Source of the DNA: Earliella scabrosa
Taxonomy: Eukaryota; Basidiomycota; Agaricomycetes; Polyporales; Polyporaceae
Assembly: GCA_022605405.1 (NCBI GenBank)
Contig: JABYQQ010000022.1
Span: 496,001 to 560,000, forward strand
DNA: 64,000 nucleotides
Direction: 5' to 3'
The position numbers and the translations under genes are program-made. Of the stretch, positions 15,243 through 63,263 are shown piece by piece (the stretch's first letter is position 1; each line of letters starts with the position of its first letter). The notes beneath the pieces are model-generated. The model had not been told where the DNA came from. It did no database searches and worked only from the letters and a program-made list of their open reading frames with translations.

Positions 15243-16923
15243 TCAGTCATCCTCAAAGTCAGAGTCGCCCTCTACCCCAACCGGAGCGCCGATGTTCCCC
15301 AAGGTACTCGACGAGAAGCGAACGTCCGTGATGTGGGTTGGGACCGTCGAGCTGATAATGCCGATGCCTCTTCCGCCGAGGCGTGACGTCGCGACCCGAA
15401 GGTTCAGGATGAAGCGGGACATCGTGACTGCGCTTAGTCTGAGGCAGCCGTGTCAGGCGAGACCACCCTATAGGCGTAGACGCGATTCGTGAGCGCTCAC
15501 ATGTTTGCTTGTATGTTGAGAGAGTTCAGCCCCTGTCGTATGGTTGTCAGCACCCTGTTGATGATAGAGGTCTGGTACACCTACTACGACCAGCGTTGCG
15601 ATACCAGCGATGTTGATGGCCAAGTTGACTCTGTTTCGAAGCGAGAGTTAGCTTCCAGCACAGACGGACGTTCTCCGAGAGTGGTTCCATACAGGAAGTA
15701 CATCGTTCCTGCAGATGATCATCAGCCCTTTCATCAGTGTCAGTGCCCGAAATTCATTACTCGTGCTCACCATCTCTGAGGAGCACAGATATCAACGAGG
15801 TGTCGACGTTCGCGCTCCGTGCAAGCAAGACGACTCCAGCAGTGCGGTACCAGGTGATCCCGAGGACCAGGACAATCTGGGCAATCACGCAGATTCGAAC
15901 TGCAAGAGCGACTGTGCAAGTGTGCGTCAGATCGCGATATGGGGATTTTTAGGACGTGATCATGCCCACCTCTGCGAGGGAAAAAATCAGTCTAGGACGC
16001 GAACATACCGACGTCACGACGAACCTGTACCAGAGTTGCGGATCCTGCTCGATGCCCTGTGTGCTGTAGCAGCCCACAGCGAGAGGATTCCCGGTTCCTA
16101 TTGAGGCGGTGGATAGCTGTGCCTAGTGAAAATACGTCATTAAGCACCTCTGAGGTGCAGTTGAGCCAAGGTAGCCACATACAATATTCGCCGGAACTGA
16201 AACGAATCCAAGGATGAAGACTAACGCGGTCAACCACCAGTTGCGATTGTTGATGGCGTGTATTCGGAGGGCCGAGAATACTGGGATGTCTTGATATCAG
16301 CAGCGGGATACGCGGCGAAGAAAGGAGACACGACGCACCGATATTGACCATATCGAGGATAACAGTGAGACTCGACAATGCTCTCGTAATGGTAGCGCAG
16401 CTGTCATACGCGCACATCAGATGAATGTTGAGATGGTTGCCGAAGGGACATACCTCTGTTGTAAAACGTAAGATAATCAGTCAGTACAATGGTGACATGA
16501 CGCCGAGATTGACACACACACCAAGTCTTCTCCCCACCAATTGAAAGAAGAGACGAGATAGAGGCCGGCGACTGCTAGGAGAGCGAATCGGTTAATGAAG
16601 AACAGCACCGTCGGTACTGTGTATCTGCTTCTCCATATCACGCGCGATTCCTCATGCACGGTGAGGAGGTGCTCGTAGATAATCAGCGCTGTGTTAACGT
16701 TGTGTCAGCACTTGATGATGTGCCATATTCTCAAGTACAGGACTTGCCCGAAGAGCCCACAGCGAGATATTGAGTTTGAGGTATCCTGGATGGTCATTCG
16801 GGGAATCAGCTCCGTGTTGTCCCTGTATAGATGAAGCAGGAAATACCATAGGTACTGGTAGAGTGACACAAGATCCGCAGAGGTGAGGTTGACCGAAGGT
16901 GGATTCGAGCTGGAAGGGAACAT
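15243..16923 (-). CDS. DUF6533-type multi-pass membrane protein, 322 aa
   Basis: Exons 16923-16847, 16785-16748, 16688-16522, 16455-16454, 16400-16339, 16280-16183, 16116-16025, 15971-15970, 15911-15771, 15708-15693, 15630-15585, 15532-15501 and 15438-15243 sum to 969 bases and stay in frame. Exons 4 and 8 are only 2 bases. Intron 2 has a GC donor (GCAAGT). The DUF6533 region is ALIIYEHLLTVHEESRVIW with PTVLFFINRFALLAV; further membrane segments are LRIHAINNRNWWLTALVFI and VLVLGITWYRTAG; the tail reads TMSRFILNLRVATS and ends acidic. Function is unknown; these proteins are abundant in Agaricomycetes and resemble seven-helix membrane proteins. Same exon plan as the genes at 46668 and 61547. 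Confidence 0.85.
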
Positions 16924-17661: not shown

Positions 17662-19278
17662 CTAGACAGGTGCTCCCAACGAGACAGAATTTTGAGACGT
17701 GAAGTGCAAGGACGACGCCGACATTGATATCCCGCTTATTTCGATACTGCGTTCTGCGGCCATGCGAAGATTGAGGATGAAGCGCGACATCACTACCCCG
17801 TTCAGTCTAAAACATACACATCTTAAGTACTGTGTGTTCATCGCCAGCGCAATGACTTACAGGCCGATATGAATGTTGAGGAAGTCGAATCCCTACAAAC
17901 CGATCGTTTGCAGGTATAAGAACGGTAACTTGACGAGGGAGACGATTGACACTGACTTCTGCTAATGTGACTAACCCCGCTATGTTGATGCTTAGTGCGA
18001 ACCTAAAGTATACGTGAGTACTACTGTAGCGGAGGCTTGCAAAAATGCCTATCATCACACACAGACAGTGTACCGCCCCTACAAACCATGCACTACGTTG
18101 AGTACCTCCCAGACGCCTGTGCCAGACAGACTACTCACCATCTCTGAATAACATGGATGAGACCGGATTGCTATGACTCAGACCTTGCGTGTTGTTGAAG
18201 GTCCAGGCAGTTCGATACCAAGTAATCACAAAGACGATCACATCTTGCAAGATTCCAGAGATACGGAGTGAGAAGGACCCTGAATAGCATAAAGGACAGT
18301 CAATCAGATACGTTCACGACAGTGTTGATCATGAAGTCATTCACAACTGTGCAGGACTGATTAGTAGGGTGTGAACCAAGAAGCGCAGATCACTGACATG
18401 GACCACATGTCAGTAGAGGAGTCGGGAACTATTATCTCCAGTCCGCCATAGCAGCCCATAGTTACAGGAGAGTTTGTTCCAACAATGGCTGTAGGAGTCC
18501 ATGCCTCCAAAAGCAGGAATTAAGGACATGCACCTGAAGGGTCGAGGATGAGAGGATTCACAAAGTTGCCCAGGACAGTGCCGATTCCCAGAGCTGAGAC
18601 GATGGTCGTCCAGAACCAATTACGGTTGTTGATTGCGTGTACACGGACAGCCGTGATCGCTGGCATCAATGTCAGCGACGGATACTTGAGTGACGAGGAG
18701 ATGATCTGCACACGAACCCAAGTGGACGAGGGAAAGCGAGGTATGAAGACTCAGTCTCACTCTGGCCATGACTTCGCAGCTGATACACACGAAGTTTCGT
18801 CGGTTCACTACGGACATCGTATCCGGATCGTCACGACCCAAGCATACCTCTACAGAGATGTGATTAATAATGACTTTCTACCAGTGCAGGGAACTCACGT
18901 AATCAACCGGCCACCATGCAAAGCAAGTGGCAAGGTACATGATGCTGAGGACCAACAGGGCATACCGATTGATGAAGAAGAGCACTGCAGGCGCGGATAA
19001 GGAACGTCTCCATATTACTCGATATTCTTCATGCGCTGTGAAGACATGCTCGTAGATGATGATAACTGCATTTCACTCAGTGCAGTTCACATACACATTG
19101 AACATGATGGATGCACTCACCGATGCAGGACACGATCAAGCAATTGGATGGAAGCCCCCTGTCGCACATCGAGTACTATCAGTTCATGTTTGGTACATCG
19201 TGTTGGAGCGTCTGACCATAATCGTCCATGATACTCAGCGAGATCGTGGATGTAATCGGATGTGTTGGAAGGGGCCAT
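17662..19278 (-). CDS. DUF6533-type membrane protein, truncated tail
   Basis: Exons traced: 19278-19217, 19158-19121, 19065-18899, 18849-18848 (2 bases), 18779-18718, 18659-18534, 18488-18398, 18346-18345 (2 bases), 18279-18139, then exons of 16, 46 and 32 bases, and 17806-17662; total 930 bases, 309 residues. Motifs: IIIYEHVFTAHEEYRVIW, APAVLFFINRYALLVL, AVRVHAINNRNWFWTTIV, ISGILQDVIVFVITWYRTA and VVMSRFILNLRMAAE. The stop at 17662 comes 12 codons before a second in-frame stop at 17626; the skipped codons (VADPHEDDFG) match the acidic tail of the paralogue at 58350, so the tail was lost by a point mutation. Closest relative is the gene at 58350, in mirrored orientation. Confidence 0.8.
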
Positions 19279-26146: not shown

Positions 26147-28205
26147 ATGTGGCTTCTCAGCACTGGCCGCGCAGTACTCACGCATTTCGTCTCCCCAGAG
26201 CACATCACAGGAGGATATGCCATCCTTTCTCATGTCTGGGGTCAACACGAGCAGACGTTCCAGGAGATACAAGGGGTGATCTCGAGATGCGCCAAGACCG
26301 GAGAGAACCCCCGCGACCTCGCATCCGACAAGATCAGGAGGTCCTGCGAGCTCGCGGAGAGCCATGGCTACGCGTGGCTGTGGATCGACACCTGCTGCAT
26401 CGACAAGACCAGCAGCGCGGAGCTCTCCGAGGCCATCAACTCCATGTTCTACTACTACTCCGTCGCAGCGGTGTGCTACGCTTACCTGGAAGACGTCCCC
26501 AGTGACGACGACTTCGCAGCGCAGGACTCGATGTTCAGGAACAGCAAGTGGCATACGCGAGGATGGACGCTGCAGGAGCTCATTGCGCCCGACGTCGTTA
26601 TATTTGCGTCGAAATCCTGGGATATCATCGGATCCAAAGCCGATATGGCCGTGGTGCTTCAGGAAGTAACAAGGATCTCTGCGGCCGTCCTCCGGCTAAA
26701 GCAGCCACTGTCAGCGTTCAGCATCGCACATCGCATGTCGTGGGCCGCGCTGCGGCGAACGACGCGCGTCGAAGACGAGGCGTATTGCTTGCTCGGGATC
26801 TTTGACGTCAATATGCCCACGCTGTATGGAGAGGGTCGAAAGGCGTTTCAGAGGCTACAGGAGGAGATCATGAAGCAGTCCCCGGATACGACGGTTTTCG
26901 CTTGGGGCTCGTGTTGCGAGTCCAGCCAGCTCATGAACCAAGGACCATGGGATGAATACAATCAATATCTCTTTGCGCATTCTCCCTCCCTATTTGTCGA
27001 CTGTCACGATATTACATTCGTTCCTCGCGAAATCGATCTTGCCTTTGAGGGTTCTTACGAGGTGCGTCCCCTCCATACCTATCTTAGCATCTTCACTAAA
27101 TGCTAGTGCATTGGCACTTGACCAGCCTGCCATCCCAATCCGTCAAAATCTAGACGAAGTCATGACGTTTACAATAACTCCTCATGGTGTGCTGGCGAAA
27201 CTACCTGTTGGACGCCTCGGCCCTGCCCGCATCGGTGATCTCGGGTGGCGCAAGGACGGACGACCGGCCTTCTTGTTGTTCTGGGTTGTGGGCGACGATG
27301 ATGACTCCGCACTCCCAATGCACTGCGGTGCGCGGACCAACGCCTCACTCGATTCCCGAATAGTCCTCGCATCAATTCCTGTTGAGACATCGTGGAAAAC
27401 AGTGTACATAGCGCATCGTGTGCTACCACACCACAATCCGCTCTACGGTCCTCGAGATCTCTCCAAAGTCGTATCCGCTAACCTCAGCTATCACTCCCCA
27501 TTCCATTTTCTACCCGGGTTCAGTAGCGACGACAAGAGTCCTTCCGGATTCTCTGTACTGAAAGACAATTCCTCTACCTTTCCGTTTCCTTGGACTGGAA
27601 CGCCTCCTTGGACATCCATCAATCAACTGATCCATATTCCTGGTTCGCGAGGCTGGAAAGGGCTTGTCCTTCGCTTAGGACTATGCAACTCGACTCAGCC
27701 TTCGTCTTCGCCTGCAGTGGCGCATTGGGCGCACATACAGAAATTCCAGTTTCACCGTATGGACGGCGATCCCATGGATGCTAACATGATGTGGAAGATC
27801 GCAGATACGTTGCTATCATGCAACGACATTGCCGATGTTGTGCGCGACGCCGATCTCCTCTACGACGTCGAGTCCCCGCACCACTCGTGCGCCACAGACC
27901 ATGTGCTGGGATGGCCGGACCTGACGCGGACGCGCACACTCACATACACCGATCCCGGTTCGATGGTGTCTACCAGTGCCCATAAAATCACCCTATCCTT
28001 TACACGACACAATCTCAACCCGCGTCGTACCCTCGTCCTTCGTGCCAGGGCACAAACCATAGATCCGCTCACTGCTCCCCCTCCCCAGCATCGGAACACG
28101 CGTCGGCTACTATCATGTCCTACGCGAGAAAAAATTGCCGTACCGAGCGTTGCGAGGGCGAGAAGTCCTTGGGAAGCATGCAAAGTCCAGTCGAGGATGC
28201 CCTGA
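26147..28205 (+). CDS. HET-domain protein, 664 aa
   Basis: Exons 26147-27061 and 27126-28205 (64-base intron, acceptor GACCAG) give 664 residues. HET motifs: GGYAILSHVWG, WLWIDTCCIDKTSSAELSEA, CYAYLEDV, WHTRGWTLQELIAP; associated region VEDEAYCLLGIFDVNMPTLY and LQEEIMKQSPDTTVFAWG. Exon 2 begins PAIPIRQNLDEVMTF and contains TITPHGVLAKL and CATDHVLGWPDLTR. The C-terminal 50 residues after the conserved LSFTRH motif are unlike those of the paralogues and may come from acquired sequence, because the related genes stop about 30 residues after this motif. Inferred role: non-self recognition and cell death. Confidence 0.87.
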
Positions 28206-28369
28206 AGCCCGACTTGTGCTCTCGATGAGCAGCGAGTCGCCTGCCTCGGATCGCAACAAGGTAGGCGCGACTTCAGATCGCGCAAGTGCTATCTGTTGCA
28301 CGAGATCCAACGTCCCTTTGGAACCCCCATGGCAATCACGGACCTTACGCCTCAACGCCCTGAATCAAG

Positions 28370-28785
28370 TGATCTGTCCCCGCCGTATATCTGGAGCGAA
28401 CCTCCGATACGGAGACCCTTCTTCGAATCAATGCTGCTGTCCAACCCGGATGAGAGAAATCATCGTCCTCCAGATCGGGCGATCCGGGTCTCGTCCCCCC
28501 AGATGTGAAGCTCCCACGGGCCCGCATGCTGCCACGGCGGACCCCGCTCATCACCGTGGCGAGAAGCAGGTCCGCCCGGGCGTGCACGGCGCACCCCGAC
28601 CACTCGTGTAAGGGGGATCACATCATGGCACGGTGGCCAGACCTCTCTCGGACGTTCTTGCACTTACTGACCTTTGATTTCACGCTTTCCTTCACCCGGT
28701 ACTGTGGATCTACGTCTGTTCAGCCTGTCATGTATGTGATGACTCATGCTGCGGGTCGTCCATGTATGAGACTCTTATATTGACT
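28370..28785 (+). pseudogene. Decayed 3' end of a HET gene
   Basis: Nucleotide-level match to the last 430 bases of the HET gene at 36409-38287: both contain TACATCTGGAGCG-like, GTCCTCCAGATCGGGCG, CGGATCACATCATGGC-like and TTTGATTTCACGCTTTCC-like stretches. Frameshifts and deletions destroy the frame. The similarity continues past the stop into 3' flank (28910 compared with 38640), so a genomic segment, not a message, was copied. Confidence 0.8.
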
Positions 28786-28969
28786 GTTCAAGTTCATCAA
28801 TGGTATACGACCTCACAGACCAGCGGAGAACGTCATACGTATCGGACGTTCATCTCACGCGATCCAGTTTCTTGGATAGACAATATACTGTAGGGCACAT
28901 ATCAGATGCATGTCAACCACAGAGGCCTGCTGCCTCATGTCCGGTCGTCCATCGCAGTTCGGTCTCTTA

Positions 28970-29045
28970 GCTGGCGCCATCCTCCCGGGGTTAATCGCGG
29001 CGAACGGTCGAGAGGGCGTTGCGTGTGGGAAGGGGATCGTTGGCA
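28970..29045 (-). pseudogene. Short GH78 exon fragment
   Basis: About 75 bases match the intact GH78 gene around 21815-21890 (the stretch reading TTGATCGCGGCGAA and GAGAGGGCGTTGCG on the plus strand). No frame of its own. It occupies the same relative place, left of a KA1 fragment, as the intact GH78 gene does further left. Confidence 0.65.
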
Positions 29046-29279
29046 GCATGAACGTTCTGGACACACCGGTCTCACTTCAAGCTTCAGTGCACCGCACATG
29101 CCTCGGGCGCCAACTTGCGCCCAGAACGAGCGGGCGCTTCGTAAGTACTCTCTGCTGCACCAGTCTCTACTTAACTCGAAACACATCCCTGGACCAATTC
29201 CGCATGCTGGAGACATGGACTGTCGCTGCTTGCACTCGTATCTCTTGCTCACACGTCTTCCTCTAGAGCCCAAGTCAGC

Positions 29280-30005
29280 TCGTGTGCTCGAGGCAGCCAC
29301 TCGAAATCGCCGTTCACTCCTGCAGCTTCCGACCCGACGACGGACGTAGACCGTTGGCAGGTTCGACCAGAATAGAGCCTCGACCGTCGTTACCTGCCGT
29401 ATACACCACGGTGCGGTGCATCCTGAGGTGACCACGACCAGCTCCCGCCCGAGCTCATGATGCACGTCAAGACCCTGATGGGCATCGACACGACCGTTGG
29501 GCGGAAGTAGGAGCGAGAGAGGCTCAGCTCTGCCCACACAATTTGGAGATATCGACGCCCTTACTTTGGTCGGCCGCGATCCCTCAGCCCGGGTACGTTA
29601 ATCATGGTCGCTTCTCGACCCTCTCCGCGCGGTCTGCCGACCAACCAGCACGGCTCGCTTGCTCCTCTACAGTCCGGCACCTCGTATGGGTTCTCCCCGT
29701 AAGTCCAGTTGCCGCAGATGTCTGTCGAAATGCTTTGTCGAGTGTCGCCTTCAAGTTCTATCTATCTATCAAGGAGGAGATCGTGACCAGCTCAGACCCC
29801 TCCCTCGGTGGATATCCGAGTCAGCCGCCAAGGTGTATCGTCCGAGGTGGACATTGTGTACGGCGACGCACCGCAGGATTCCGGCGACGTAGAGCGATTC
29901 GCGGTGGAGCTGACGCGCATGAACCATCCCGACCTGGACAAGAGTACGCACAGTCTCGATATGTCCTCGTTGACAACTCGCATAATGCTGATTAGATACC
30001 GTGTA
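29280..30005 (+). pseudogene. Second KA1 fragment, broken
   Basis: Degraded copy of the segment at 23559-24245. Recognisable pieces include a CACGGTGCGGTGCATCC stretch (HRGAVDP region), GATGCACGTCAAGACCCTG, and near 29840 DIVYGDAPQDSGDVERFAVE with SLDMSSL. Stops and frameshifts prevent translation. Confidence 0.65.
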
Positions 30006-30180
30006 TCGTGTACGCGCTTTCATCTCTGTTGACGACCCACGGACTCCCACGGAGTGTGCTAACAGACGCTAACCATCCTATCAGTATGAGCGGCTCGTAC
30101 GGCTGCCAAGTAACAATGTCATCCATTATCCAGGAGACCTGTACAAGTACGACAAGCGAGGCTACCGAGTCGCAGAAAGA

Positions 30181-30312
30181 GAAAGCGCATTTTGGTTTCC
30201 CCGCCCGTGCGCCGACTCCTGGGCTCGTCGGGAGTCGGCGCGCGGGCGGGTACTCGTCCCGAGGACCACGTAGAGGTATGCGCCAGGACCGAAGTCCCTC
30301 CCTCGGGAAAAG
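30181..30312 (+). repeat. Truncated R1 copy
   Basis: The first about 130 bases of R1 (GCGCATTTTGGTTTCCCCG through CTCCCTCGGGAAAA) are present; the remainder is replaced by pyrimidine-rich minisatellite sequence. Confidence 0.75.
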
Positions 30313-30379
30313 AGAGACTCACTCACCTTTGAACCTACCTTCCGCCGCTAGAGCAGCACCTACCTTCCCCGCGAATGAA

Positions 30380-31130
30380 ACCGCTGATGATAATTCCCAA
30401 CTTGAACGACCTACCCTTCGCACTTACCTTCTTACGCGACTTACCTTTCGACTTACCATTCACCTCTCGACTCACCTCTCGACTCACACCTCCACGCTCA
30501 CCTCCACGCTCATTTCACGCTCACCTTTCTCAACCACCGCTCGACCTACGTCCAGAATCAGTTCTCGCATTGTGTCGACGCCCATCTCTCGACTCACCTT
30601 CACGCTCCCGCTCCCCGCACATCTCGTACTCCTTTCAGGCTCCCGCTCCCCTATCTCCACCGTCTCTCCCCTCCTCCCCTCACCGCTCAACCTACCTCCA
30701 CAATCAGCTCTTGCCCTGACCCCACGCTCTCAACTCACCTTCACGCTCCCACTCTCCGCACATCTCATTCTCCCTTCAGGCTCCCGCTCCCCTATCTCCA
30801 CCGTCTCTCCCCTCATCGCTCAACCTACGTCCAGAATCAGTTCTCGCCCTGTGTCCACATCCATCTCTCGACTCACCTTCACGCCCCCGCTCCCCGCACA
30901 TCTCGTTCTCCCTTCAGGCTCCCGCTCCCCTATCTCCACCGTCTCTCCCCTCGTCGCTCAACCTACCTCCGTACTCAGCTCTCGCCCTGTCCCCACGCAT
31001 GTCGTGCGACTCACCTTCACGCTCTCGCTCCCCGCACATTTCGTTCTACCTTCACGCTCCCGCTCCCCTGTCTGCACCGTCTCTTTCCTAACCTCCACAC
31101 TCACCTCTCGACCTACCTGAACACCTCTCG
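30380..31130 (-). repeat. Intron-bearing minisatellite, about 130-base units
   Basis: At least four imperfect units of about 130 bases starting near 30590, 30730, 30865 and 31005; on the plus strand they read CGACTCACCTTCACGCTC, then CCGCTCCCCTATCTCCACCG. On the minus strand every unit contains a GAAG/GTGAGT donor, a CTGAT-type branch point and a TAG acceptor about 50 bases later, i.e. each unit carries one potential intron and one purine-rich exon encoding RGETVEIGERE-like peptide. Confidence 0.7.
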
Positions 31131-31220
31131 CCCTCCACCCTCACTCGATATACCTTTGGACCAACTTCTCGGTTCTGCACTATCCTTGACGTCTTGAAGC
31201 CCCGACGGAAGCTATCCAGC

Positions 31221-31514
31221 CTGCAAAGCAAACGATCACCCGCGACACACGAAGCAAGTAGACGACGTACCTCGAGACCTGAAACGAGACAGTCAGTATC
31301 GTCCTTCCTCTCGCAGAGACACCTACCTTTGACCTGAAACGAAGTGCAATCAGTGAAGTTCCACATACATCAAGACCTACCTTCCGACCTGCAAAGAGAG
31401 ACGAGACGCGATCAGTACCGTTTGACCCTTTACAGGAAGACGCACCTTTTGACCTGAAAGAAGGCGTCATCAGTACCGCTCGACCTTTCGCATGAAGACC
31501 TACCTTTCGACCTG
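31221..31514 (-). other. Array of five 7-8 base exon modules
   Basis: Reading leftward, five modules each have branch point (TACTGAT, CACTGATT or similar), acceptor CAG, a tiny exon and a strong donor (GTAGGT, GTGCGT or GTACGT). Tiny exons: 31511-31504 GTCGAAAG, 31453-31446 GTCAAAAG, 31388-31381 GTCGGAAG, 31333-31327 GTCAAAG and 31278-31271 GTCTCGAG. Introns between them are 50, 57, 47 and 48 bases, and a 50-base intron leads to a longer exon starting at 31220. Joined, the modules have one frame that stays open into that exon and encodes a Lys/Arg-rich stretch. Whether it is transcribed is unknown. Confidence 0.6.
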
Positions 31515-31557
31515 TAACGAGACTTAATCAGCACCGCCCTACCTTCAGAACGGAAAC

Positions 31558-31645
31558 CTACCTTTGGAAAAGAAACACCTACCTTCCGGGAGAAAAACAC
31601 GTACCTTCCGAGAGAGAAACACGTACCTTGCCCTAGCGTCTCACT
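31558..31645 (-). other. Tandem 5' splice-site-like repeat
   Basis: Reading leftward, five consecutive AAG/GTACGT, AAG/GTAGGT or close donor-like sites occur at 18-22 base spacing (repeat unit AAGGTACGTGTTTCTCTC) without intervening acceptors, directly upstream of the micro-exon array. Confidence 0.6.
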
Positions 31646-31776
31646 CACCTGGTTACTAACCTCCCGTATACGAAGTACTCACCTCTGACGCGCACCGCTA
31701 CAGAAACACTTACCTCGACGAACTTACCTCGACGCACTTACCTCAGCCTACCTCATCCCCTCTTGAACTTGGCCCC

Positions 31777-32482
31777 TTACCTCCGATAATGACTCGCGAT
31801 GGAAAGAAAGCACGTACCTGATCTTACCCTGACACGGAAGGCGGTAAGTTTCTGCGCCCGATGCTGGATGATGAGCTCACGTACCGTACAGGCGACGTGG
31901 GCGCACGCGGATCCGAACTTGAAGATCTTGTTGTCGACCACTGCTGCTGTAATCCGCGAACTCCGAAATCCGTAACCCGAAAGATCAGTCGGTGAGCTCA
32001 TGGTGAACGACGCAAGGAGACGACTTACCTTCCTCCCTCTAGGAAGGAAAATGTCAACATGACGCGGTACCACGCTCGGCGAACGAGAAAGGCTCACCAT
32101 CAATCCACCCCACCCCAACCGTTCGTGTCGGCCAGTCGACCGAGGACTACACTCCGCAACTCTGACAGACGACACGGTGGTCAGAGCTCAGCAAACGGCT
32201 GAGAGAAGAGGGCCCAGGAAACGACCGTGACGTACCTCGCGTCAGCATATAGAAGGCTCAGAGGCCGAGTGGACGGTCAGCGCGAAGGTCGAGAAGCTGC
32301 AACGAGAGGCGACGCACCGGGGATGGAGGAGGTTGGCGCATGACGCTGAAGAGGCTAAAGTCAAGGCGAGTCCGAGCAGAGCGAGCTGCGGGTCTGAGTC
32401 TGTGTCGCCGACGAGAGGGAAGTGCGGGCGAGGAGTAGATGGGGGAAGGAGAGCAAGCGTGTTGGAGGGACGGCGAGCGCAA
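31777..32482 (-). CDS. Uncharacterised leftward gene start, fragmentary
   Basis: Not recognised. Open stretches on the minus strand contain MSSPTDLSGYGFRSSRI and VDNKIFKFGSACAHVACTV, next to donor/acceptor pairs, including a possible 10-base exon AGGGAGGAAG (32043-32034) preceded by a branch point and TAG and followed by GTAAGT. Pyrimidine-rich sequence near 32480-32410 could be a transcription start. It would be the 5' part of a gene running into the micro-exon array at 31.2-31.6 kb. Exon structure was not resolved, and the coding status is doubtful. Confidence 0.3.
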
Positions 32483-46667: not shown

Positions 46668-48365
46668 ATGAAGTCTCTTGATACGAACACATCTGTCATC
46701 GGGCTGACGAATGAACAAATCCTGGATCTGTACGAGGAGCTATGGTGAGTGCCCCTATTGACCTCGGCGTACAGTACGTGCCATGGAGTCTTACACTATG
46801 ACACCAGGATCCCTCAGGCAAACTATCTGGTCGTCGGAGCAGTTGGTGAGTTCGGTCTCTCGAGTCTCATCAAGTCATCTACTCTGACAGTCCAACGTAA
46901 TCGTTATTCACCGCAGCATTGATTATATATGAGCATATCCTCACCGCACAGCAAGAATATCAAGTGATATGGAAGCGCAAGCTCTCCCTCCCGATAGTGC
47001 TGTACATCTTGAACAGATACATCCTATTGGGTGTGGGTGGTCTGTACATCTTTTGCTCCAACCTGGTATGGTTGCCAATGGACCACGTAAGACGTAATCA
47101 TCATACCTCTAATCTCCGCTGACCGTATCGGCATGCTTCAGACGTGCGTTGGCCCTTCATGTTGGCCATTTTGTCCCATGGTTGATCATCTCCGGTCCAG
47201 TTGCAACGTCCTCTTTAAGGTTGGTACTGGCCTTAGAACTCTTCTCGACGTCGTCACCACAGGTGAGTTAGTGCCCTTCGCTCGCAATTGCCTCATGCTA
47301 CAATGAGCTGCTCACTTCCCAGCCTTGATGGCTCTTCGTATACATGCCATCAACAATCAAAACTGGTGCTGGACAGTCATGACCCTCTTGCTCGGTCTTC
47401 TTTCTGTTCCTGTCAACATTGTAAGCCACTCCATGCCTCCATCTTTGCCACAACGATGATGAACGTGGTTGAACACTTATATAGTACATTTCTGTTTTAA
47501 CTCAAAACACGACACTCTACCCTGTTGCTCCGGGCTGCATTTTGAATGGGCGGTTAGAGAACTTGAATTGGTGAGACCATTCATTCTGTTCCTTGCGGAG
47601 TACGATGCTGACATTGATTTTGATCACGCAGGAGTGAGCGCAAGCCGTTGTTACTCACAGATGCCTTGAGACCTCACACACAGAACACTCACAGTAACGG
47701 TCGCGGTCCGCATCTCTAGAATCGTCCAGGATATAATCGTACTGGGAATCACATGGTATCGGACATTCGGTACTCTAGTTGCTGCACGACGTGCGCATGT
47801 CCACACCTCTGTGGTGTCTGTCTTGCTGCGAGATGGTCAGTTATTTATCTTGCTAATTCAACTATACAGAACTGATGTAGCATCGTTCTAGGGACCATGT
47901 TTTTCATGTGCGGATAGACATACTGTCAGTTGCCGAGTCTTACCATGGAATTGACACGAATACATCAGGGCCACATTAGGGGTCTACGTCGTGAGCATAC
48001 TCCTCGCTTTGACGGTGAGTAAACTCCAGATATTTGCCCGCTGCTCGCCTTGCGGGTCTGATATTCACTCGCTCCCTGGCATGACAGACTGTCAACTACT
48101 TCATCGCCGATTCCATCTACATGTGAGTATTGCTCCGATACCCGATACCCGCTACCACACTACAGCTTCAAGTGCTACGCACAGACTCAGGGCGGTCACC
48201 ATGTCACGTTTCATCCTGAATCTTCGTGTGGCAACGTCGTATGGCGACAGCGCTGCTTCAGCGTTGAGTTTCACAGGTGTTCTACCCTCTTCATCCATAT
48301 TTGGGAACATAGGCGCTCCCATACACATCACTGAGGATCAAGACGAAGAGGAGGATGGACTATAA
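46668..48365 (+). CDS. DUF6533-type membrane protein, 317 aa
   Basis: Exons 46668-46744, 46808-46845, 46917-47086, 47142-47143, 47201-47262, 47323-47420, 47485-47570, 47632-47633, 47695-47835, 47892-47907, 47969-48014, 48088-48122 and 48185-48365 sum to 954 bases without a stop. Exons 4 and 8 are 2 bases. Motifs: IPQANYLVVGAVALIIYEHI, LTAQQEYQVIWKRKLSLPIV, ALRIHAINNQNWCW, IIVLGITWYRTFGTL, SVVSVLLRDG and TMSRFILNLRVATSYGDS; acidic C terminus EDQDEEEDGL. Very similar to the gene at 61547 including promoter. Multi-pass membrane protein of unknown function. Confidence 0.87.
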
Positions 48366-48951
48366 CCACTTCTGATGGACACTGCCGTTCTGGGATGGAG
48401 TTGTAACGATTCAGGGTCTCTGCGCGATATTTGGTTCCCTTGTCCTACTGATTGGCCTCTGGTGTCTGAAGTATTTATACTTTGAATTATCAGAACGGAA
48501 GCCCTACCCCGACTCGGAGATCTCAGAACACTATCATGTACAATCCGTGGCCTCTTTTCGTGCACTCATTGACAACTCCAGAGCAACAGAGATTAGGGAG
48601 GATCGATCGCAAAGCTCCTTTTGAGCTCTGACTCCGAACGCGTCCGATCGCACCTGGCCCAGCCTCCTTAGCCCCAGCCATGGTGGTACGCGCGGACGCA
48701 ACTACTTCCACTCATCCTGTAGCACCCGGTGCATTCTAGTAGTGCATAGCACATCTTGAATTCTCTCCACACATATCAGATGACGTACATAGGGTTATCC
48801 CCGCACCAATCGGGACGGGCGCAGGCCGCACAGCCCTGCCACAAGTTGTACATGTTTGTTCAGATGTTGGCGCGGAGCGGTGCTGCGTCAGCCTAGTACC
48901 GCATTCGCTATAGGACTCAGGAGCTACACCCTCTTACCACCCACCGTCGTC
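48366..48951. other. Gap before coiled-coil gene
   Basis: No gene recognised; contains the promoter of the coiled-coil gene starting at 48952. Confidence 0.35.
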
Positions 48952-58349: not shown

Positions 58350-59979
58350 ATGGCATCCTCAGACTCATCCGAGTATCTCCACGAAATTACCGGGTATTAC
58401 GGGAGACTATGGTAAGTCGCTCGAACGGCCTGTGACGTCGCTCTAATCGTGCACTCATTTGTACCGTAGGCGCTTCCCGTCCAACTGCTTGATCTTGTCC
58501 TGCATCGGTGAGTCTGTCGATCGCATCCAGTGTGTGTATTATCTCCACTGAATGGACTGTAGTGATCATCAGCTACGAGCATATCTTCACAGTGCAAGAA
58601 GAATATCGAGTGATATGGAGACGCTCCTTGTCCGTGCCTGCCGTGCTCTTTCTCATCAATCGGTATACCCTGTTGGTCCTCAGTATCATGTACCTTGCCA
58701 CTTGTTTTGCATGGTGGCCGGATGATCACGTGAGTTTGCTGAGTTTAGCAGAAGATCATTGTTAACCACATCTCTCCAGAGGTACGCTTTGTAACTGACG
58801 ATCTGGATACGGGTCCGCAGTAAACCGATGAATGTCTATTTGTATCAGTTGCGAAGTCATGGCCAGGATGAGACTTAGTCTCAATACCACTCACTGTGGT
58901 TCACTTGGGTGCGTGTGTAGATTCTGTCCTCATCCATTATCGCATTACTTACATTGCTGCCAGTAATCACAGCGGTCCGTGTACACGCAATCAACAACCG
59001 TAATTGGTTCTGGACAATCATCGTCTTAGCTCTGGGAACCAGTACCGTCGTGGGCAACCTTGTGAGCCCTCTCTTTGTCAACCTTTCAGGTGGATGTCCT
59101 CACCTCTTACTTTCTGAGGTCTTGATTCCGACAGCCGTCGTAGGAACAAATTCTCCCATTACTTTGGGTTGCTATGGCGGACTAGGGGTAGTAGTGCTCG
59201 ACTCCTCTACTGACGTATGGTACAAGTCAGTGATATGCGCTTCTCGTGTACACACAGAGCTGAACAGTCCAACCCCCAGATGTGATTGGTGAATTACCTT
59301 TGATTGACTGTCGCTTATAACGTCCAGGGTCTCTCGCGGACCGCATTTGTGGAATCTTGCAAGATGCGGTTGTCGTTGCTATCACCTGGTATCGAACTGC
59401 CGGAGCCCTCGACTACACGCAAGCTCCGAGTCCTAGTAATCCGATCATGTTCACGCTACTGAGAGATGGTGAGTCGTCCGTTCGTCGCCTATACATGGAA
59501 ATTCTCAGCGTAGTAAATGCTTTGTAGGGGCAATATACTTCCTGTGCGTGACGACAGGCATTTCCTTAAGCGGCCCATTCATGAAGAGTCCAGATTCGCA
59601 CTGTGCATCAACATCGCAGGGGTAGTCACATTAGCAGAAGTCAGTGCCAATCTTCTCAGTCTGAATGCTCTAATACCTGCGACTGGTCGGATTACAGGGA
59701 TTCACATCTCTCGGCATCCATGTCCGCTTGTAAGTTCTCTTTGCGTTGACTACGAACTTTTCAGCTGACCGATGTGTTCATTCTAGACTTAACGGGGTAG
59801 CGATGTCGCGCTTCATGCTCAATCTTCGCGTGGCCGCGGAGCTCAGCGCTGGAATGAGCGGGATGTCAATGTCGTCCTTGCACTTCATGTCTCAACCTTT
59901 CTCCTCTCGGGCGATCGGAGACTTCGGGGTACCTGTCGAATTTGTATCACATCCACACGAGGAAGATCTTGAATTCTAA
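58350..59979 (+). CDS. DUF6533-type membrane protein, possibly frameshifted
   Basis: Same exon plan as the family: 58350-58411, 58470-58507, 58563-58729, 2-base exon 58780-58781, exon from 58849, 58964-59089, a segment ending at ...DVWYK, 2-base exon 59280-59281, and later exons to the stop at 59979. Motifs: IISYEHIFTVQEEYRVIW, VPAVLFLINRYTLLVL, AVRVHAINNRNWFWTIIV, ICGILQDAVVVAITWYRTAG, AMSRFMLNLRVAAE; acidic end HPHEEDLEF. The exon from 58849 to the strong donor at 58909 is 60 bases, 2 fewer than in all paralogues, which would break the frame; a weaker donor at 58899 (GTTCAC) would keep it. Either a recent pseudogene or a shifted splice site. Closest to the gene at 17662. Confidence 0.68.
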
Positions 59980-61546: not shown

Positions 61547-63263
61547 ATGAAGTATTTTGGTACCGGAACGACTGTCATTGGGTTAACCAATGAGCAAATT
61601 ATTGATCTATACAAAGAACTATGGTGAGTACCTCTATTGACCTCGGCATATGCCACATGCCAAGGAGCTGTGTACTATGGTATCAGGATCCCTCAGACAA
61701 ACTATTTGGTTGTTGGACCAGTTGGTGAGTTCGGTATCTGGTGTCTCCCCTCGGAGCCATCTACGCCGTCAATCCCTGACCGTCACAAACCGCAGCACTA
61801 ATTGTATATGAGCACATCCTCACCGCACAACAAGAGTATCAAGTAATATGGAAACGCAAGCTCACCATTCCGATAGTGCTGTACCTCCTGAACAGATATA
61901 CCCTATTGAGCATCGGGGTTCTATATATCTTCTGGTCCTACCTGGTATGGGTGCCAATGGATCATGTAAGTTCATCATACTGTCTCGTTGAATATCACCG
62001 TTGACTGTCAATGTGTGCTCTAGACGTGCGTGAGCCCCGCAGTCTGACCATAGTCGCCCCGTGTCTAATTTAAGTTTCAGCTGCAATATACTCTATAAGA
62101 TCACTTTAGGTCTGACACTTCTTCTGGACGTCGTCAACACAGGTTCGTGATCGTTGGACTAGTGATTAGCTGCCTTGTGTCTCAATGTGCTGCCGGCTGT
62201 CGCAGCTTTTCTTGCTCTTAGGATCCATGCGATCAACAATCACAACTGGTACTGGACGTTCATTGTCATACTGCTCGGACTCGTCTCTTTTCCCGCTGAC
62301 ATTGTGAGTGATTCCATGCCTCCGTCGTGGTAACAAAGATGATGGTCAGTTGATAAACATATACTATAGCACTTGGTTGTCTCCACCCGACACGCAACAC
62401 TCTACCCTGTGGTTCGCGGCTGTATTGTGAATGCCGACAATGGGCAGCTACTGAATTGGTGCGGCCATTCAGTTACCTCCACTACTTGTAGACTATGAGA
62501 CTGACGTTCGAATCTATCATGATAAACTTTGGCAGGGGTACGCACAATTTTCTTGATACTGAGAGATGACATGGCCTTATAAAGAGGACATTTTCAGTAG
62601 CGGTCGCAGTCCGCATCTCCAGGATTGTCCAGGATATCGTAGTGCTAGGCATCACGTGGTATCGGACATTTGGTACTCTAGTTGCTGCCCGACGTGCGAA
62701 TGTCCACACCTCTGTGGTGTCTGTCTTGCTGCGAGATGGTAAGCCAGATTGCCAAGCTTGATGTGAGTCAAGAGCACTGAACGAGAACTTTCTCAGGAAC
62801 GATGTACTTCCTGTGAGGGCAGACATGCTATCAGCTGCCTCTTACTATGGGATTGACGAGAACTTTGAATCAGGGCCACGTTAGGGATCTACGTCGTGAG
62901 CATCTTCACAGCATTCACGGTGAGTCAATTGCAGATTTCAGATGTCTGCGCAACTTCCTGTGTGAGTCCAATACTCACTTGTTCATGACAGACCAGCAGC
63001 TACCTCATCGCCGATTCCATCCACGTGTGAGTTCTGTTCCAGATACTCGCCACTATACTACGGCTTGAAATCGTATACAAAGAATCAGAGCAGTCACCAT
63101 GTCGCGCTTCATGCTCAACCTCCGTGTGGCAGCGTCGTACGGCGACAGCGGCGGTTTAGCATCGACTTCCACAGATATCCCATCCTCTTCATCCATGTTC
63201 GGGAACATAGGCGCTCCCGTGCAGATCACCGGGGATGAGGACGAAGAGGAGGATGAACTGTGA
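61547..63263 (+). CDS. DUF6533-type membrane protein, 318 aa
   Basis: Exons 61547-61623, 61687-61724, 61796-61965, 62024-62025, 62081-62142, 62206-62303, 62370-62458, 62536-62537, 62598-62738, 62797-62812, 62874-62919, 62992-63026 and 63083-63263 sum to 957 bases, 318 codons plus stop. Exons 4 and 8 are 2 bases each. Motifs: IPQTNYLVVGPVALIVYEHI, LTAQQEYQVIWKRKLTIPIV, ALRIHAINNHNWYWTFIVIL, IVVLGITWYRTFGTLVAARR and TMSRFMLNLRVAASYGDS, with acidic end EDEEEDEL. The acceptor before the last exon is AAAG, weaker than CAG. Predicted multi-pass plasma membrane or endomembrane protein of unknown function. Confidence 0.87.

Follow-up and report, generated by a model that had tools for sequence, protein, structure and literature searches.

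Exons of a single base are already known from plants and from Fusarium. In plants, the 1-nt exons of APC11 and VPS55 were verified by RT-PCR or RNA-seq (PMC4674806, PMC8831610), and for Arabidopsis APC11 the authors argue for stepwise splicing by intron definition (PMC4674806). As these reports describe them, the plant cases comprise one 1-nt exon per gene in few gene copies. For fungi, the 1-nt exon of CYP621A in Fusarium, published in 2026, is presented by its own authors as the first described for a fungal gene (PMC12940212). According to that report, the case concerns one 1-nt exon in orthologs of a single ascomycete P450 and makes use of SRA reads. Two further fungal systems are related in other respects. 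The P450s of Phanerochaete form a big white-rot gene family with small exons and frequent introns of 45-55 bp, the shortest exon given being 6 bp, or two amino acids (PMC1184071), and stwintrons consist of two closely associated introns which are removed stepwise (PMC7385547).

Here, we describe a gene of the basidiomycete Earliella scabrosa, termed gene Q, which very probably is a functional member of the DUF6533 family containing two constitutive coding exons of two bases each, derived from an old ancestor of that family. With CYP621A it shares the nuclear location in a fungus, coding exons below 3 nt that lie between canonical GT-AG introns and are essential for the phase, and the discovery via family comparison; for CYP621A, nearly all public models were reported as wrong (PMC12940212). 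It differs from CYP621A in that the family of gene Q contains two 2-nt exons per gene, in basidiomycete paralogs with identities down to 18%, recognised from sequence alone. A conserved and widely misannotated exon of fewer than 3 nt is also the common feature with APC11 and VPS55 (PMC4674806, PMC8831610). The Phanerochaete P450s resemble the family in their small exons, short introns and large gene number, with a minimum of 6 bp there versus 2 nt here (PMC1184071). A stwintron has its one intron lodged inside the other, whereas gene Q has two complete introns with two coding bases between them. A search of open-access titles and abstract openings yielded no report dealing with fungal 2-base exons or with the gene structure of the DUF6533 family, which does not imply their absence from print. 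As far as this search reaches, the length of two bases, the presence of two such exons per gene and their spread through a large basidiomycete family are new.

Gene Q is located in a window of 64,000 nucleotides, i.e. the whole stretch of DNA analysed (contig JABYQQ010000022.1, positions 496,001 to 560,000), to which all coordinates refer. In the part of this window from 28001 to 32000, the GC skew is -0.224, far beyond that of the rest.

The gene is encoded on the plus strand and is read in 13 exons. Exon 1 (61547..61623, 77 nt) begins with ATG and is followed by exon 2 (61687..61724, 38 nt) and exon 3 (61796..61965, 170 nt), which contains the bulk of the DUF6533 domain and ends in phase 0. 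Behind intron 3 (61966..62023, 58 nt; donor GTAAGT, acceptor TAG, branch-like TTGAC) lies micro-exon 1, the 2 nt AC at 62024..62025, which together with the next base forms Thr96 directly before Cys97. Intron 4 (62026..62080, 55 nt; donor GTGCGT, acceptor CAG, branch-like CTGAC) separates it from exon 5 (62081..62142, 62 nt), the length of which is equal in most parsed members of the family. Exon 6 (62206..62303, 98 nt) and exon 7 (62370..62458, 89 nt) follow, the end of the latter being placed at 62426 by the aligner used in the family survey. Downstream of intron 7 (62459..62535, 77 nt; donor GTGCGG, acceptor CAG, branch-like CTGAC), micro-exon 2, the 2 nt GG at 62536..62537, finishes Trp178 and begins Val179; at this place the aligner favours another reading. 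Intron 8 (62538..62597, 60 nt; donor GTACGC, acceptor CAG) has a weaker branch-like match, TTGAT. The remainder of the gene comprises exon 9 (62598..62738, 141 nt), exon 10 (62797..62812, 16 nt, a length kept in most parsed family loci), exon 11 (62874..62919, 46 nt), exon 12 (62992..63026, 35 nt) and exon 13 (63089..63263, 175 nt), which ends with TGA. The sequence before AC reads CTCTAG and that after it GTGCGT, while GG lies between TTGGCAG and GTACGC; both micro-exons are found between canonical splice sites (AG-AC-GT and AG-GG-GT).

A first-pass annotation of this DNA had placed the two micro-exons exactly here, with AG on the left and GT on the right, and had given the introns around them 58, 55, 77 and 60 bases. 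These positions and lengths hold, and the joins CAT-AC-CTGC and AATTG-GG-TAGC match the modelled gene. The 13 exons proposed are indeed open up to the stop at 63263, giving 316 aa; their sum, stated as 957 bases, is corrected to 951, 957 being the exon sum of paralog B. It had also been claimed that the frame is lost without either micro-exon. This is true of both, with an early stop upon skipping of AC only: the frame then ends after 100 aa, whereas skipping of GG leaves a wrong frame open until aa 307. The assertion that the gene can be read only by means of the 2-base exons was too strong, for frame-keeping single introns exist at both joints and a reading of 1014 nt without the micro-exons is likewise open. 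An AG-NN-GT pattern seen in one gene alone would be unconvincing. As a single gene could not settle the question, the family was used as evidence, and judged from its loci the pattern lies above chance.

The protein of gene Q matches DUF6533 (PF20151) with 49.7 bits against a Pfam cut-off of 24.1 (E 3.8e-13). SNB1 of Coprinopsis has the same Pfam domain and seven predicted helices, and is required for fruiting-body patterning (PMC10949477). The product of gene Q is probably a seven-helix, receptor-like membrane protein. The AlphaFold2 model of the paralog P0012 contains long helices consistent with seven (mean pLDDT 65.5), and the best 50 of 830 PDB matches of this model are GPCRs by title, with E values of at least 0.009 and TMq of at most 0.44; this structural match is weak because the model is of modest confidence. 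In the model, the residue of micro-exon 1 adjoins the conserved Cys close to where the third helix begins, and micro-exon 2 is placed near the start of the fifth. Cys97 (exon 62081-62142) and Cys167 (exon 62370-62458) of gene Q are invariant in an alignment of nine sequences, and we take their placement to be like that of the TM3-to-second-loop disulfide pair of class A GPCRs.

The Earliella scabrosa genome, searched as a 51.7-Mb assembly of 48 contigs, holds at least 150 DUF6533 matches. A non-random sample of 40 loci, made up of 5 window genes, 7 relatives picked by similarity and 28 high-ranking hits, was parsed with a splice-aware profile aligner in which the exon length is free and GT-AG is obligatory. 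The profile was seeded with four public proteins and then refined on parsed loci, so it is not independent of the loci. Among exons shorter than 15 nt, the aligner used 2 nt 55 times, 5 nt twice, and 6 nt and 7 nt once each; exons of 1, 3, 4 or 8-14 nt were used in none of the 40 loci. Since lengths of 2, 5, 8 and 11 nt all mend the same frame, the pile-up at 2 nt is meaningful. Junction 1, defined as the joint between the DUF6533 exon and the exon that measures 62 nt in most copies, was assigned a 2-nt exon in 32/40 loci and a 5-nt exon in two (L057, with TCAAG, and L065). The dinucleotide in the 32 loci is AG (23), AC (4), GG (4) or CT (1). At junction 2, a 2-nt exon was called in 23/40 loci with mixed dinucleotides, AT occurring in eight. 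Both micro-exons together were found in 20 of the 40 loci, and the number of independent loci is lower by one, as the parsed proteins of L063 and L064 are identical. These two copies lie about 10.5 kb apart and represent a recent duplication.

When exons below 12 nt were forbidden, the score fell in 36/40 loci, with a total loss of 688 bits. As a control, the interior of each interval was shuffled ten times with its dinucleotides preserved. The shuffles gave 2-nt exons in 15/340 cases at junction 1 and 13/230 at junction 2 (28 in 570 overall) and matched the real score in 10/340 and 4/230, respectively; at junction 1, exons of 5, 8 and 11 nt (13, 12 and 12) were about as frequent in them as those of 2 nt. 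The real micro-exons are preceded by a pyrimidine at acceptor position -3 in 31/34 cases at junction 1, two of the 34 being 5-nt exons, and in 23/23 at junction 2. Skipping of the micro-exon leads to a stop in 30/32 loci at junction 1 and in 22/23 at junction 2.

The two halves flanking a micro-exon were also compared with the family's ordinary introns of up to 80 nt, leaving out L048, L050 and L058. Median lengths are 57 nt for the upstream halves, 59 nt for the downstream halves and 59 nt for the ordinary introns. G at position +5 is present in 98% of the upstream halves, 85% of the downstream halves and 92% of the ordinary introns. A strong branch-point match was detected in 38/55 upstream and 31/55 downstream halves and in 133/277 ordinary introns, compared with a fraction of about 0.2 in shuffles; in gene Q, it is found in introns 3, 4 and 7, and intron 8 has the weaker match only.

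No 2-nt exon was called by the aligner in 8/40 loci at junction 1 and in 17/40 at junction 2. Apart from the two loci with 5-nt exons, those at junction 1 include L003, where the micro-exon is absent and one intron of 55 nt is found, L001, for which there is no clear call, and L048, L050 and L058, which gave poor parses. L007 lacks the downstream intron, so that AG is continuous with the Cys exon; here a 2-nt exon appears to have been absorbed through the loss of an intron. For junction 2, nine of the 17 aligner-negative loci were judged to have the micro-exon, by eye or from a public protein: a suitably placed AG-NN-GT is seen by eye in paralog C, gene Q, L039, L040, L003, L006, L008, L052 and L059, and in C and L040 the 2-nt exon is demanded by public proteins. 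L044 has a single intron and an exon 7 of 91 nt, as if 89+2, and in L004, L048, L050, L053, L057 and L058 the micro-exon is absent or without a clear call. At junction 2 of L061, a gap of 109 nt is observed in which CTTGCAG abuts GTACGA, so that introns of 53 and 56 nt touch with zero bases between them; the exon downstream measures 140 nt, as if 138+2. Here a 2-nt exon may have evolved into one of zero length.

Close tandem paralogs of gene Q are paralog A, located in the window at about 46669-48366 (+), and paralog B (locus L039). Paralog A carries AC at 47142..47143 (+) as micro-exon 1 and GA at 47632..47633 (+) as micro-exon 2; in paralog B, micro-exon 1 likewise reads AC. The window paralogs C, D and E are more distant from gene Q than A and B. 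Their micro-exons 1 and 2 are AG at 16454..16455 (-) and AG at 15970..15971 (-) in C, AG at 58780..58781 (+) and AT at 59280..59281 (+) in D, and AG at 18848..18849 (-) and TT at 18345..18346 (-) in E. Gene Q and paralogs A and B share 13 exons of equal length, save for exon 7 (89, 86 and 95 nt, respectively); in this comparison, A is two bases short at the stop, and junction 2 of B as well as the ends of both paralogs were placed manually. The dN/dS values of the three genes are 0.14-0.31 before the joints, 0.33-0.40 between them and 0.20-0.30 after them (0.23-0.31 overall). With values of at most 0.40 in all three blocks, one protein appears to be under selection across both joints.

Public protein models of Earliella scabrosa offer a further view on the joints, and P0006, P0007, P0012 and P0018 originate from the same contig as the window. 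Peptides around the joints were searched exhaustively against the DNA, allowing GT/GC-AG and at most two introns of 40-200 nt each. For P0012, which derives from L040, exactly one reading exists at junction 1 (49-AG-67) and exactly one at junction 2 (53-AG-63). P0006, the model of paralog C, has one reading at junction 2 (53-AG-58) and requires the micro-exon there, which the final aligner run does not choose. At junction 1, P0006 avoids the micro-exon of paralog C through a donor two bases further on and an intron of 119 nt. The exon 3 donor of this gene (about 16454-16522, -), TTG/GTGTGTGT, consists of two overlapping donors two bases apart, from which either a 2-nt exon or the single 119-nt intron of P0006 results with the frame kept; real alternative splicing is possible at this site. 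The models of A and B (P0018 and P0007) leave the 2-nt exons unused. By inspection of part of 26 public proteins, which include some from other species, junction 1 reads as one Ser followed by Cys in P0001, P0004, P0011 and P0012, and shows insertions, losses or other sequence in P0002, P0003, P0005, P0007, P0009, P0015 and P0018.

Single ordinary introns with other canonical sites might bridge the joints, the AG-NN-GT pattern then being due to chance. Such introns are easily found: the frame-keeping, stop-free GT-AG introns at junctions 1 and 2 number 16 and 12 in gene Q, 7 and 2 in paralog A, and 4 and 10 in paralog B. At junction 1, single-intron ALTERNATIVES exist in 32/32 carrier loci, with a median of 10.5 per locus, and at junction 2 in 22/23; fair sites with at most three residues changed are available in 11/32 and 2/23 loci. 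Other sites are also used by the public models P0006 (at junction 1), P0002, P0003, P0007 and P0018. Nevertheless, we regard this explanation as unlikely, although in an individual gene a single-intron reading may apply. The alternatives are scattered, with the commonest position fitting 11/32 loci at junction 1 and 10/23 at junction 2. Two positions at junction 1 (donor +0 or -21, acceptor +19) stay open in each of Q, A and B, but their acceptor falls 19 bases inside exon 5, and they lose at least seven residues, including the Cys invariant in nine sequences, and need an AAG acceptor in Q and A. The best-scoring junction-1 alternative of gene Q, among the 12 of 16 listed, has its acceptor 38 bases upstream and adds 12 residues. 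At junction 2, no alternative is open in the three genes together, and one is shared by Q and B. Moreover, the bridging introns would mostly have about twice the usual family length (median 59 nt), P0012 is unreadable via single bridging introns, and the aligner picked 2 nt 55 times, whereas the shuffles spread across 2, 5, 8 and 11 nt. Junction 2 is the weakest point for a 2-nt exon in gene Q itself. Support there is reduced by a competing reading of 57+46 nt, which the aligner scores above the 2-nt exon in Q and paralog B, and by the single-intron alternatives that most loci have; the 2-nt exon is favoured since it keeps LNW in A, B and Q and fits the family.

It is very improbable that the two additional bases come from a non-canonical site two bases inside an intron, where an early 3' site would add AG or a late 5' site GT. 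Either shift would cause a stop in 0/32 loci at junction 1 and in 1/23 each at junction 2, and at junction 1 the AG shift specifies the same codon as an AG micro-exon. At junction 2 of Q, A and B, however, the AG shift creates a TGA stop, and the shift in general requires introns without GT-AG ends and leaves the central AG-NN-GT, the second branch point and the doubled length unexplained. A decaying gene, in which 2-base exons merely seem to rescue a broken frame, is scarcely credible. It is true that no identical public protein was found for gene Q among the matches (best identity 56%) and that the poorly parsing L048, L050 and L058 belong to the family, but the 13 exons are kept in three paralogs, 2 nt recur at the same joints family-wide, and the pseudogene reading of gene Q was rejected on the low dN/dS in all three blocks of Q, A and B. 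In stwintrons, it is the donor, acceptor or branch element of the external intron that is split by the internal one. This arrangement was rejected for gene Q, where each intron has its own donor and acceptor and the two bases between are needed for the frame, as was a zero-length exon of the type found at ratchet points of recursive splicing, two bases being retained in the model.

The reading with two 2-base exons proposed by the first-pass annotation is thus supported by the same joints across a diverged family, by halves that resemble introns and by the DNA-to-protein reading of P0012. The frame on either side of each joint, the canonical splice sites, the recurrence in the family and the selection on both sides can be read directly from the DNA. 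With regard to the age of the micro-exons, carriers at junction 1 have identities down to 18% (median 26%), and in a midpoint-rooted FastTree phylogeny, in which several inner supports are low, both micro-exons occur on both sides of the root. They are likely ancestral to the sampled family; the midpoint root and the low inner supports keep this short of proven.

For the splicing of such genes, we infer that intron definition would treat each half like any other intron of about 55-60 bases. The two introns flanking each 2-base exon would be removed one after another, because two splice sites so close together are presumably too near for joint occupancy. As skipping of micro-exon 1 shifts the frame and leads to a stop within few codons, correct stepwise removal would be needed for the protein. 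Since many dinucleotides are tolerated at junction 2, splicing probably does not depend on the two exon bases as a signal; the preference for AG at junction 1 may be owed to the codon, to the donor or to both.

In a wider perspective, we see an even chance that both micro-exons are ancestral to the DUF6533 family of mushroom fungi, that a genome such as that of Earliella scabrosa splices about 200 of them, a figure extrapolated from a non-random sample by applying the rates of 32/40 and 23/40 to 150 listed hits, and that removing the paired introns in order, given that the frame fails without micro-exon 1, is an obligatory and possibly regulated checkpoint in the production of these receptor-like proteins. 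If true, this would perhaps be the largest set of exons below three bases in any organism. The joints are often misread in the public models of this basidiomycete family, to which the fruiting-body gene snb1 belongs. In the published cases found, exons of 1-2 bases are confined to few genes, while the DUF6533 family would offer dozens to hundreds. Its 2-base exons vary in dinucleotide, donor and intron length, and some paralogs seem to have lost one intron. The family would thereby provide a natural experiment on how small an exon can be, on the order in which almost-touching introns are removed, and on the birth and loss of such exons.
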